In this document: positions 1,583-47,026 of the stretch, piece by piece
Position numbering within the stretch: the first letter of the stretch is position 1
Layout: every line of letters starts with the position of its first letter
Virus record (IMG/VR): IMGVR_UViG_3300026320_000008
Location: 1 to 51,938 of that record
DNA: 51,938 nt
Direction: 5' to 3' (one strand)
From: a virus
Translations under genes and position numbers: made by a program
The notes under the pieces: model-generated
What the model was told of the DNA's origin: nothing
Seen by the model: the letters and a program-made list of their open reading frames with translations, nothing else
The model's database searches: none

Positions 1583-3322
1583 ATGGCTATTACCTTTGTT
1601 CAAAAAGCTATATCTGCTGATAATGGTTCAGGTACAACAGTAACTGTAAATATTACAGCGGGAACAACAGGTAATTTGATCTGTGGTTCAGTTGTTTGGA
1701 ACGATCCTCAGACTCTAACGAGTGTCAAAGATAATAATGGCGTAACTTACAATATTGTAGATAATACAGATGATGCAGGTGATGGCGTGTCTATGGCGAC
1801 ATTCTATTTACCTAACATATCTGGAGCACCTACTTCTATTATTGCCACATTCAGTGCTAGTGCTATAGTCACTCGAATTGAAGTACAAGAATGGTCGGGT
1901 GTAGCCACTACAACTCCGCTAGATGGGCATATAGCGCAGCAGACTAGTGGAGCAACAGTTTCTTCAGGAAATATAACTACCACTGTTGGTGGTGATTTAA
2001 TTTATGGCTCTGCTATAAGTGCAATCAGTAATACTGCTCTAACAGTTGGTTCTGGATTTACCATAAGAAATAGTGGACAAGGTTCTGGCTTTGTCAGACC
2101 TATGGCAGATGAAAGTCAGATACAGTCTTCTGCAGGAACTATAGCAGCAACATTCACATCAAATCCTACTACAGATACATGTATTGTAGCTGTAATGGCT
2201 TTTAAAGCGGCTGCAGTAACTGCTAATCCTGTTGTTGGAAAGATCTACGACTTACCTCCAAGGGGATTTGTCTATTCCGAATGGCAAAAGTGGACAGAGA
2301 GTGGATTAACTACTCTTCCCGTTCCTACGTTATTAACTCAGACTTTACGTGTTCAAAGAGATTGGCCTAATCCTTATCCTGTAAATTGGTATCAAGATTG
2401 GAGAGAATGGACTACTTTACCTCGTCCTACTCCGTTTAGACCAATAGATACATATGCATTTCCACCTCTTTATTATAACGTCAATCTTTGGCAAGAAACA
2501 GGTAATTCTAGTCTTCCGATACCTCTGACTCCTCAAGGTCAACCATTTGGTTTAGATTTAAGTCAAAACAATATACCTAATCTTACTTGGTATCAGAGTT
2601 GGACTGTCTCTGGTAATGCGTTAACAGCAGTTACACAGAATCCGTTCATACAAAAGGATTGGCCTAATCCTCAGAGAATTAATTGGTATCAAAGTTGGAC
2701 TGAAAGCTTCAATCTAACTAATCCCTTCAGTCAGTTAGATTGGCCGGTGCCAAAAATTTATAAGCCTATTGATCAATTTTGGTCTCAAAGTTTAACGATT
2801 TTCTACCAATCTGAAACATTTCCATTCGTACAATTGGATTATCCTAATCCTCAGAGAACAATCTGGTATGAAGATTGGTTTCAAAATCTTCTTGAAAATA
2901 CGTTGGCTCCTGCGTTTCAGGCACCATTCAATCAAACAGATTGGCCTTTACCCAGAACATTTAACCCTATTGATCAGTTCTGGCAAAATAGTCTACAGCT
3001 TATACCCAAGCCTACACCATTTTTTCAGACAGATTGGCCGCTTCCACGAACATTTACACCTCTCGATCAATTCTGGGCTGCAAATCCAGAGCTTTTATTA
3101 CAGTTTGTATCAGGACAACCCTTTACTCAAACTGATTGGCCTCTCCCCAAAGGCAACATTCCGATCGACCAATTCTGGTCTATCAATACAAGTAATCTCC
3201 CGATTCCGTCTCCTCCTCCTGTGGAACAAGGTTTTGCAGGACATCAGTGGACAGAAGCAGATGTAAAACGTGCTGCAGCAACATGGTTAGGTCTATTGGG
3301 AGCATATAAGCGATGGCGGTAG
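1583..3322 (+). CDS. putative virion protein with C-terminal WPxP repeats (579 aa)
   Basis: Residues 1-210 form a Thr/Ser/Gly-rich beta-type domain. Residues about 255-545 hold seven irregular copies of a motif of the form [RKLT]-D-[WY]-P-x-P, each followed within about 20 residues by WYQxW or DQFW (for example TDWPLPRTF and KDWPNPQRI). Such tandem Trp/Pro motifs suggest a repeated binding or assembly module. A short basic helix ends the protein. The stop overlaps the next gene by 10 nt. It is probably a minor tail or head protein; no enzyme motif is visible. Confidence 0.75.
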   Translation: MAITFVQKAISADNGSGTTVTVNITAGTTGNLICGSVVWNDPQTLTSVKDNNGVTYNIVDNTDDAGDGVSMATFYLPNISGAPTSIIATFSASAIVTRIEVQEWSGVATTTPLDGHIAQQTSGATVSSGNITTTVGGDLIYGSAISAISNTALTVGSGFTIRNSGQGSGFVRPMADESQIQSSAGTIAATFTSNPTTDTCIVAVMAFKAAAVTANPVVGKIYDLPPRGFVYSEWQKWTESGLTTLPVPTLLTQTLRVQRDWPNPYPVNWYQDWREWTTLPRPTPFRPIDTYAFPPLYYNVNLWQETGNSSLPIPLTPQGQPFGLDLSQNNIPNLTWYQSWTVSGNALTAVTQNPFIQKDWPNPQRINWYQSWTESFNLTNPFSQLDWPVPKIYKPIDQFWSQSLTIFYQSETFPFVQLDYPNPQRTIWYEDWFQNLLENTLAPAFQAPFNQTDWPLPRTFNPIDQFWQNSLQLIPKPTPFFQTDWPLPRTFTPLDQFWAANPELLLQFVSGQPFTQTDWPLPKGNIPIDQFWSINTSNLPIPSPPPVEQGFAGHQWTEADVKRAAATWLGLLGAYKRWR

Positions 3323-30981: not shown

Positions 30982-31513
30982 TCTGGCCCTTATCCTTTCC
31001 AGCGGACTGTTGGGCAAGCTCGTAGACGAGTTTCCACTCATTCTTGGTGAGAGCGTCGATGAGAGCTTTCTCATGTTTGGCTACTCCATCAGAGAGCTTC
31101 TTGATTTCGTCGAGACGTCCGGCACTGAATTCTCGACGAACGACTTTTCGATCGCGATCGTACTTGACATCGTCGGGCTTGTCCACTTTGTCACGGGCCA
31201 TCACCAACTTTGTCAAGTTTTCATAGACAGCAGCGAAGGCTTTCGTTTTCTTTTCAGCCTCTCGTTTAGCAATCTCCTCGATAAACAATCCTTCGATAAT
31301 CTCAGGAGATGTTAGTTCCGCTACCTTCTCCACATACTTAGCGAGGATAGCGTTTGAAGGAACCTTTTCGTCGGGCTTGTCGGTGAACATATCAGTCATT
31401 TCCGGTCTCCAAGCAAAATCACCTAATTGTGAACAGGCCTTGGCATAAATGTAACGAAGGTAATTTAACCAAGATACATCAATGGCGAGGCGGTTGTCTG
31501 ATCCGATTGGCAT
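30938..31513 (-). CDS. hypothetical charged protein (191 aa)
   Basis: Very Lys/Glu/Asp-rich helical protein with a low-complexity Gly/Ser/Thr tail. The ATG at 31513 overlaps the HNH-like gene by 35 nt. An alternative ATG at 31399 has GGAG seven bases upstream and would give 153 aa. No named domain. Confidence 0.62.
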   Translation of the reverse strand: MPIGSDNRLAIDVSWLNYLRYIYAKACSQLGDFAWRPEMTDMFTDKPDEKVPSNAILAKYVEKVAELTSPEIIEGLFIEEIAKREAEKKTKAFAAVYENLTKLVMARDKVDKPDDVKYDRDRKVVRREFSAGRLDEIKKLSDGVAKHEKALIDALTKNEWKLVYELAQQSAGKDKGQSGDKSGGTTSETTA

Positions 31514-31721
31514 GTCTACTTACCACTTTGGTAGGGACACGACTTAATGAACCAAATCTATGGAATCCAACATGATCCAATTCTTTCTTGTCGCCCTTAT
31601 GCACGAGTCCCTTTTTTAGAGCTTTTCGTCGTGCTTGGTTGCGGGCCTCCCTTCGGAGAACTTGGGCTCTCGTGTCCTCCCACTTGTTCTCCTTCGCGTA
31701 ATTGTGCGCTATTGTTAGCAC
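31479..31721 (-). CDS. small HNH-like protein (80 aa, GTG start)
   Basis: GTG start with AAGGAGG three bases further upstream. The C-terminal half (KELDHVGFHRFGS and then VVSRHANRIRQPPR) resembles the minimal phage HNH pattern 'DHxxP..GG....R.....NR..P', though the canonical proline/glycine positions are altered. It may be a small endonuclease or a degenerate relative. It overlaps the upstream frame by 125 nt. Confidence 0.5.
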   Translation of the reverse strand: MLTIAHNYAKENKWEDTRAQVLRREARNQARRKALKKGLVHKGDKKELDHVGFHRFGSLSRVPTKVVSRHANRIRQPPRH

Positions 31722-42822: not shown

Positions 42823-44325
42823 CTATGTCTTGTAATTTTCAAATCCATCATTTCTCTCCCTTAATGTATTTGTCAGAGGATTAAATATGATGGGACCTGC
42901 TGGTCCCGTCTTCCCAGAGTATCTATTCTTAGAAACGGTGGGATAAATCACATTGTCCCCTGACAGGATGTCTCTAATTAAATCAATTCTAATATCTGCT
43001 ACCTTACTTGGGTATCGCGAGCCTCTGGTCTGCCCGTTGTCATTGACGTGGCAGACCATGATGAATGCGAAAAGTAATTCCTTCACCATCATTTCGATTT
43101 TGGTGGAGAAGTAGTCGATCGCACGCCGCTCATCATCCTCGTTACGACCGCTGAAAACCATAGTAAGGTGGTCGAGTAGAATACAGCGGCAAAGACAGCC
43201 CACCACAAGGAATCTGATTGTGTCGAGTAGTGCATCTGGGTCCATGCTCCCGAAGTTAGCATGAAGGAATAGACGCTCATCCGACCCCAGAAGAGTTCCC
43301 AATGCAGCAGGTGCTTGAGTCCCATGACCAGGTAAGTGGCAGGGTTCTCCCAATTCAAGGCTTGCAAGCCCCTGAAGATGTCTTCGAGTCGGTTCCTCCA
43401 AGAAGAATGAACCGACATTCCAATCCGTGGTTTTAAGGATTCTGTGTTCAATGGCGCGGACAAACTCGGTTTTACCGATTCCTTCTTGAGCGGTGACGAG
43501 GATGCTTTCTCCTGGTCGGATACCATACGTCATCTCCGTTAGTTTTGGAAAGGGGTAGTCTACGCCACGTTTGGGTTCCTCTTCCAATAGAACTTTGAAG
43601 TCAGATAACGAGGAGATTATGGTTTCGGGTAAGTACTTCTTACTATTGTACCAAATTCTCCGTAAGTCATCTTCTTCATCGTTGGTGAGAAACTCGTTGG
43701 CGTCCTTCCACTTCGTTAGTTTGACGTGAAAAAGCTTCTGAGGGTCGAAAAGCTTAGCCACTGCATGGAGGGCAGATTGTCCCGCGCTGTCTCCGTCAAA
43801 GCAGAGGTACACACGCTCGAAGCTTTGAAGCCAGGATCGATCGTGGCTAATGTCCCCCAACCCGCTAGCACTAGAACGAATACTGACCACAGGATGGTGG
43901 ACGACTTGATAGAGAGAACAGGCATCTAATTCTCCTTCCGTTATGGTCACACATTTATGTGACCCAGCCGCAAACTTATCACGACCAAATAAACCTGGTG
44001 TGGGTTTACCTTCTACCCAGAATTTCTTTTCTTTGAGTGACCTAACTTTTCTCGAACCGTCAGGATAAGTATAAACAATGTCCAATGGGCTGCCGTCATC
44101 GCCCAAAATACGGGTAAGTACTCCATAATGACGGAAGGTGTCTGCATGAACTCCTCTCCATGGTAAATATTCAAGAGTATACTCTAATGAATGTTTGGAA
44201 CCACCATCAGGTGGAATGAATGTTTTACAACTAAAACAATACCCGTGCCCGTCGCTCCAAGTGGAGTACGCATCAGAACTTGAACACGACGGGCATGGTA
44301 AATGAGCTTCAATTAACTGGGACGT
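42823..44325 (-). CDS. primase-helicase, T7 gp4-like (500 aa, apparent ACG start)
   Basis: Zinc-binding N-terminus C-x2-C-x15-C-x2-C (Cys11, 14, 30, 33), identical in spacing to T7 gp4; TOPRIM primase residues TEGELD (Glu130) and CFDGDSAG (Asp177, Asp179); helicase Walker A AQEGIGKT (279-286), Walker B LLDHLT (Asp385) and NRYSGKTG near the end. No ATG, GTG or TTG occurs in frame before the zinc motif. AAGGAGG lies five bases before ACG at 44325, which gives SQLIEAHLPCPSC. A TTG at 44106 would give a 427-aa form without the zinc domain, as gp4B in T7. Confidence 0.9.
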   Translation of the reverse strand, partial: TSQLIEAHLPCPSCSSSDAYSTWSDGHGYCFSCKTFIPPDGGSKHSLEYTLEYLPWRGVHADTFRHYGVLTRILGDDGSPLDIVYTYPDGSRKVRSLKEKKFWVEGKPTPGLFGRDKFAAGSHKCVTITEGELDACSLYQVVHHPVVSIRSSASGLGDISHDRSWLQSFERVYLCFDGDSAGQSALHAVAKLFDPQKLFHVKLTKWKDANEFLTNDEEDDLRRIWYNSKKYLPETIISSLSDFKVLLEEEPKRGVDYPFPKLTEMTYGIRPGESILVTAQEGIGKTEFVRAIEHRILKTTDWNVGSFFLEEPTRRHLQGLASLELGEPCHLPGHGTQAPAALGTLLGSDERLFLHANFGSMDPDALLDTIRFLVVGCLCRCILLDHLTMVFSGRNEDDERRAIDYFSTKIEMMVKELLFAFIMVCHVNDNGQTRGSRYPSKVADIRIDLIRDILSGDNVIYPTVSKNRYSGKTGPAGPIIFNPLTNTLRERNDGFENYKT

Positions 44326-45020
44326 GGGATCCTCCTTAAAGAGTGAAAGACAAAATGATTGGGTTGAACACCGTTGACAGCCTCATAAATTTGTAGAGGT
44401 TTGTAATCGTAGCCATTGTCCGGTATCCACCGTTCAGGATTAGCCACGTACATCCAAGTTTCAACACGCTTGGGTACAAGAGGTGTACGAACACGCGTAC
44501 CGAATTTGCTTTTGCTTAAGCGCGTACCTGGTTTTGGTGGTGTTCCGAATGGTGTCCAAATAGATTTGGCGCACCAGATTTTAATGGTTACTGTCGTGCG
44601 GATGAAATCATACCCGTTTTTCATACATTTGTCAAGTTCTTTTAACACTCCTGTGGGAACTAAATGAACTTCTCCCAAGACTGAAACCGGATGAGCAGAC
44701 GTTTGGTTGCTCCAATCTGGTTGAAGAGCTGTTCTCGAATTCGGAAGAAACAATGCTCTTTTTTCCGATAGGTGCCAATAACCGTTGAACAGAGCATCGG
44801 TAAATCCTCGTCCTCGATACTGTGCGTACTCTTTAATAATCCCGTGATTAACGTACATCGGACGATTACGCATGAAGTCGTCGCAGATAAATACAGGATG
44901 TCTCCACTGAGACTCAAGCTCTCCGGCATCTGGAGTGTATTTATTATCTTCCCACGTTCTCTCAACAAGGTTCTTGATTTGCCAGTTTCTGTATAACTGC
45001 AGCGGGTTCACGGTAAACAT
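44313..45020 (-). CDS. gamma-glutamylcyclotransferase-like (AIG2-type) protein (235 aa)
   Basis: VLGEVHLVPTGVLKELDKC followed by NGYDFIRTTVTI and later ETWMYVAN matches the central motif of the gamma-glutamylcyclotransferase/AIG2 fold (GE...v...LD...Y.R..v). The acidic 'EG' after LD is replaced by MKN, so activity is uncertain. GGAG precedes the ATG. It overlaps the primase gene by 13 nt. Phage role unknown; it might alter host glutathione or peptides. Confidence 0.68.
   Translation of the reverse strand: MFTVNPLQLYRNWQIKNLVERTWEDNKYTPDAGELESQWRHPVFICDDFMRNRPMYVNHGIIKEYAQYRGRGFTDALFNGYWHLSEKRALFLPNSRTALQPDWSNQTSAHPVSVLGEVHLVPTGVLKELDKCMKNGYDFIRTTVTIKIWCAKSIWTPFGTPPKPGTRLSKSKFGTRVRTPLVPKRVETWMYVANPERWIPDNGYDYKPLQIYEAVNGVQPNHFVFHSLRRIPRPS
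44607..44635 (-). promoter_or_regulatory. internal consensus-like promoter upstream of the primase
   Basis: On the minus strand TTGACA, a 17-nt spacer and TATGAT (5/6) lie inside the cyclotransferase-like gene. The start of transcription would be near 44600, about 275 nt before the primase start. May allow separate expression of the replication genes. Confidence 0.6.
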
Positions 45021-46606: not shown

Positions 46607-47026
46607 TTAACCTTTCAGATAGTTTGCGAAGTCCGGAAAGTATTTCCGGTGTACTTCGTCGTTGTTCGCGTACAACGATACCATTCTTCCACGAAGTTCG
46701 TAGAGATATTTCTGTCTGGCTCGTATTGCCTCCTTTGTTGGAGTTAAAGGTTGAGGTTTTATGCCGGGTATCCACGAGAAGCGGCGCATCCAACGGTTGT
46801 ATTCTTCACCACTAATCACACCTTTGTGGAAGTCATCAAACAGCATATCGTGTATCCTGTCAGAATAACGATCGAACTGTTCTAAATCCCTCCACTTCTC
46901 GTACATTGTCCACCCCCCAGCATTCGGTCGTCTCTTAAAGCGAGACTTAATTCTCGGCCAATAACGATAGACAATAAGAAACACAGCTAAGCCCAGCAAT
47001 GTTGGGCCTAGAGATATTTCATACAT
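46607..47026 (-). CDS. membrane-anchored hypothetical protein (139 aa)
   Basis: ATG 47026 has GGAGG five bases upstream. One N-terminal transmembrane helix (about 6-22) is followed by a basic, aromatic soluble domain. It ends 4 nt before the 475-aa gene and lies just after a leader with an 11-bp inverted repeat. No named domain. Confidence 0.7.
   Translation of the reverse strand: MYEISLGPTLLGLAVFLIVYRYWPRIKSRFKRRPNAGGWTMYEKWRDLEQFDRYSDRIHDMLFDDFHKGVISGEEYNRWMRRFSWIPGIKPQPLTPTKEAIRARQKYLYELRGRMVSLYANNDEVHRKYFPDFANYLKG

Follow-up and report, generated by a model that had tools for sequence, protein, structure and literature searches.

The primase-helicase of phage T7, encoded by gene 4, is made in forms of 63 and 56 kDa, the latter lacking the zinc-binding domain (PMC9198812) and arising from an internal second start. 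Start codons other than ATG, GTG, and TTG are known from bacterial genes in which their effects have been measured, such as infC (ATT/ATA), ccpN (AUA), cvfC1 (AUU), and sigR (GTC). In Staphylococcus aureus, infC, ccpN, and cvfC1 stand behind extended Shine-Dalgarno (SD) sequences, and AUU or AUA starts so equipped give about 10-30% of the yield of AUG (PMC13009471). Near-cognate starts are repressed by IF3, the GTC of sigR being one such IF3-repressed case (PMC5472188). Our literature search found no paper describing a rare start codon in the primase gene of a phage.

The DNA analyzed here (the window) is a 51,938-bp IMG/VR record encoding a family-A DNA polymerase, a terminase, a head-tail adaptor, an internal virion protein, and tail genes, a gene content pointing to a tailed phage that is probably podovirus-like. 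In their terminase protein, four further IMG/VR contigs (L066-L069) match the window with 98-100% identity, and thus the same species of phage is present in other metagenomes too; none of the four carries the primase. The window's primase-helicase is probably an ordinary full-length protein of the T7 gp4 type, whose translation would start at an ACG codon at 44325 on the minus strand. This start is well supported by the start column of relatives, an optimal SD, and the recurrence of near-cognate starts in the family.

A T7 gp4-type primase-helicase and its probable start

Judged by its profile and fold matches, the frame at 42823-44382(-) is an intact, full-length T7 gp4-type primase-helicase. 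The product read from ACG (CDS 42823..44325(-), 500 aa) matches PHROG 239 over residues 5-497 (E 6.5e-118) and the T7 gp4 profile 6n7i over residues 7-493 (E 2.6e-68), and the best Foldseek matches of its predicted fold (mean pLDDT 82, pTM 0.53) are all gp4. It shares with T7 gene 4 a zinc ribbon of identical cysteine spacing, a TOPRIM RNA-polymerase domain (RPD), and a RecA helicase, although the two proteins are only ~25% identical and the start here is ACG. The spacing of the ribbon, C11-x2-C14-x15-C30-x2-C33 (44227..44295(-)), is as the sequence-only reading had it, and the ribbon is also detected by Pfam Zn_Ribbon_Prim at E 4.6e-4, slightly below the gathering score. The RPD (43648..44184(-), residues 48-226, with EGELDA and FDGDSAG) and the RecA/DnaB-type helicase domain (42847..43626(-), residues 234-493, with Walker A; GIGKT and HVND..Q.RGS) both retain intact catalytic motifs.

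The frame ends at a stop at 42823 and is open back to 44382, with no ATG, GTG, or TTG between 44382 and a TTG at 44104..44106(-), which is codon 74. Thus, the earlier claim that the zinc motif lies upstream of every canonical start in the frame is correct. Read directly, the minus strand runs ...CTTTAAGGAGGATCCC and then ACG TCC CAG TTA ATT GAA..., which confirms an AAGGAGG (44331..44337(-)) separated from the proposed initiation codon (44323..44325(-)) by the five-base spacer ATCCC. Immediately upstream lies a gene for a 235-aa protein of no Pfam or PHROG family (44313..45020(-)), whose stop TAA (44315-44313) falls 10 nt inside the primase gene, giving an overlap of 13 nt.

Among 50 candidate starts, this SD has the best predicted anti-SD pairing, at -12.1 kcal/mol (the next are -10.6 and -9.2), and the start region is weakly structured (-6.1 kcal/mol). 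The two strands of the window together contain eight copies of AAGGAGG, against a shuffle mean of 5.6; by that count of eight, the expectation is about 0.006 copies for the ~88 nt that separate the upstream in-frame stop from the first zinc cysteine. An SD followed by ACG is in itself not rare (five instances of AAGGAG-N4-10-ACG versus 2.1 expected), and the informative point is its position ahead of a conserved N-terminus. One other such combination, at 46724(-), heads a 108-codon frame that overlaps two other genes and is without a homologue; it was rejected as a chance occurrence.

The sequence-only reading had further proposed that a shorter helicase of 427 aa is made from TTG 44106 and that the rare ACG might set the ratio of full-length primase to this form. 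Neither proposal found support, on the same grounds. The TTG lies ~26 residues inside the RPD, whose match to the T7 domain begins at residue 48; by this match, the structured RPD starts at residue 48, and residue 74 falls just past one of its predicted strands. The TTG has a weak and badly spaced SD (-5.9 kcal/mol at 13 nt), sits in a region more strongly structured than that of ACG, and is not conserved; nor was any internal start found to be common to the primases of relatives. Unlike in T7, no SD-supported canonical start is present in the linker between the zinc ribbon and the RPD, and we found no evidence of a second product. Two nested products are a property of T7 gene 4 and are not required for membership in PHROG 239.

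The start column in relatives

The closest named relatives are the primases of the Rhizobium phages RHph_I3_11, N3_13, and N3_19 and of Sinorhizobium phage phiM6, at 37-39% identity (38-39% for RHph_I3_11, N3_19, and phiM6); ~60 IMG/VR relatives are 35-59% identical. Codons 1-73 are about as conserved (48-62% identity) as the remainder (57-61%), and hence translated. The N-termini of the named relatives align at the ACG, but their primases begin at ATG, which stands exactly at the ACG column in phiM6 and one residue later in RHph_I3_11 and N3_19. Many of the IMG/VR homologues likewise have ATG, GTG, or TTG at this column or a few codons from it (e.g., ATG in L092 and L141, GTG in L150/L102, TTG in L103). 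Alignment of this position had been suggested as a check on the ACG, and the ATG found at the column itself in phiM6, and at it or within one codon in L092 and L141, supports the start. Counting against it, the window's ACG might be a former second codon, threonine being codon 2 in some relatives (ATG ACG TCT in L156, TTG ACG TCA in L111); however, the codon preceding ACG in the window is CCC, 2 nt from the SD.

Loss of a canonical start is not confined to the window. In three lineages (L120, L126/L127, and L135), the primase column holds ATA and no canonical codon precedes the zinc ribbon, while siblings of these lineages have ATG (L121, L122, L123, and L128) or GTG/TTG (L129/L131). The ATA codons stand behind SDs of -8.7 (L120), -6.0 (L126/L127), and -8.8 kcal/mol (L135). 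In a hand-compiled comparison, uncorrected for relatedness, the SDs of four near-cognate sites were stronger than those of 49 canonical ones (median -5.4 kcal/mol; one-sided rank test, p 0.002). In L108/L116 (~2986-3030), the primase has neither an ATG, GTG, or TTG ahead of the zinc ribbon nor an SD-supported near-cognate start, an ATT three codons upstream being without a good SD. In these two loci, the upstream gene ends in ...KKYYKF* (TTC TAG C) in a different frame.

On a tree of 60 primases, a quick one with many weak branches, the canonical start was lost five independent times: to ACG in the window, to ATA in the three lineages above, and in L108/L116, which have no recognizable start. 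Among the other primase loci checked, all of 51 marine-phage-like and 70 further ones have canonical starts. Among the relatives compared, only the window has ACG as the sole start.

The primase overlaps the conserved 3' end of the neighboring gene in this group. The start column holds TCG in L104, L110, and L140, where a canonical start remains only 9-20 codons upstream; thus, the start position drifts within the group. Together with L114, these loci have TCG or CCG at the column and canonical starts only far upstream. In L140, the change at the column, relative to L103, is a synonymous TTT>TTC in the overlapping upstream gene.

Other genes and rival explanations

In an all-against-all comparison of frames, convincing conserved N-termini without a canonical start were confined to the primase (8 of 70 rows, including L138, whose start is unclear) and the DNA polymerase (2 of 24). 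In some 25 further gene families at the same loci, no canonical start was missing apart from frames judged to be overlaps or shadows. The scan picked up numerous antisense and overlap shadows as well; these were discarded by eye, together with a 78-codon cluster showing homology upstream of a GTG that probably reflects an overlapping gene.

In the Rhizobium phages I3_11, N3_13, and N3_19, alignment of the DNA polymerase N-terminus suggests that the gene begins at ATA (L063 7686, L212 7686, and L065 7353, respectively), where relatives have ATG or TTG. I3_11 and N3_13 read ATA ACA AAG ATT TGG GTA, against ATG AAT AAA ATA TGG GTA in phiM6, and their ATA stands behind AAGGAAGGAGG, with 13 nt to the last AAGGAGG. 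The GenBank start lies 120 nt downstream of the ATA in I3_11/N3_13 and 96 nt in N3_19, shortening these polymerases by 40 or 32 codons, with loss of the conserved N-terminus. These are isolate genomes, which argues that near-cognate starts in this group are not an artifact of metagenomes.

Two further starts in the window drew attention. A small basic HNH-like gene (31479-31721(-)) has an ATA at 31712 behind AAGGAGGGAGGTG where its homologues in L076, L113, and L115 have ATG and begin MA(H/R)(N/D)Y; the case is ambiguous, as the gene may instead begin at a GTG that lies three codons upstream, overlapping the SD. The window's own DNA polymerase A (38644(-)) starts at a TTG with essentially no SD that overlaps the upstream stop (TTGA), and its start is probably coupled translationally to the upstream gene.

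Since one copy of the locus is available, the main rival to a start at ACG is a sequencing or assembly error, or a transient strain variant, in which a single T>C change hides an ATG carried by the population. We consider this improbable, though far from negligible. The window is a single metagenomic contig, near relatives have ATG at or beside the column, and no second copy of the primase locus was found: searches of viral_contigs and phages returned no near-identical one, and genome contigs yielded no relatives. Against this stand the near-cognate starts in independent contigs, the ATA starts of the DNA polymerases of three isolates, and an exceptionally strong SD, as expected of compensation. 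Natural near-cognate initiation is thus the likelier of the two.

Much less probable is initiation at another non-canonical codon of the frame, such as ATT 44313 (codon 5). Rare starts at ATT are known (infC; PMC5472188), and a product begun here would still include the zinc ribbon; however, this codon is ~17 nt from the AAGGAGG, far beyond the usual spacing, and the homologues start at the ACG column. Slightly less credible still is that ribosomes translating the upstream gene shift frame and so supply the N-terminus as part of a fusion protein. The 13-nt overlap, the overlap of these two genes in several relatives as well, and the rare codons AGG AGG in the overlap region are compatible with it; yet a -1 shift would be needed, no X-XXY-YYZ slippery site is present, and the frame relation to the upstream gene varies between +1 and +2 among relatives, with no conserved shift. 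The least plausible reading is that only the 427-aa product is made and the zinc ribbon is a relic: TTG 44106 is the sole canonical in-frame start near the N-terminus, but the ribbon and codons 1-73 are conserved, and the position, SD, local structure, and lack of conservation of the TTG all speak against it.

Initiation at ACG and its consequences

The preferred reading, translation from ACG 44325, most likely involves a weak initiation, perhaps sensitive to IF3, for which an extended SD compensates. We infer that the strong, well-spaced AAGGAGG would place the 30S subunit on the ACG, where the initiator tRNA would read the codon with a second-position mismatch and insert fMet. No tRNA or Rfam elements were found in the window, and hence no phage initiator tRNA. 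The upstream gene ends 10-12 nt past the ACG, and coupling to its termination may contribute. The yield would be lower than from ATG, and the gene would be sensitive to IF3; any regulatory benefit is likewise conjectural. ACG ranks among the weaker near-cognates, which counts against its use here.

Like infC, ccpN, cvfC1, and sigR, the window's primase would have a non-canonical start codon, and with the three S. aureus genes it shares the extended SD; in contrast to these bacterial genes with measured effects, it presents a predicted start, ACG, in a phage replisome gene. As in infC, a near-cognate codon occupies the homologous start, with a strong SD and no canonical alternative. However, the identity of the codon is not conserved, close relatives having ATG, GTG, or TTG; therefore, we do not class it with infC-like regulatory starts and liken the two only at the step of initiation.

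Across the group, near-cognate starts look like a recurring, weak way to begin replication genes. A tentative extension, which we hold to be doubtful, is that this lineage repeatedly evolves ACG or ATA starts with compensating SDs in its primase-helicase and DNA polymerase, thereby throttling replication proteins by, or tying them to, host IF3 and translation status. Gene callers normally take only ATG, GTG, and TTG, and therefore genes with near-cognate starts are annotated in truncated form or missed, at the cost of the zinc ribbon in the primase or the conserved N-terminus in the polymerase. If the start proposed here is true, ACG would join the short list of natural start codons in bacteria and phages, and a testable link would emerge between the fidelity of initiation, through IF3, and phage replication.
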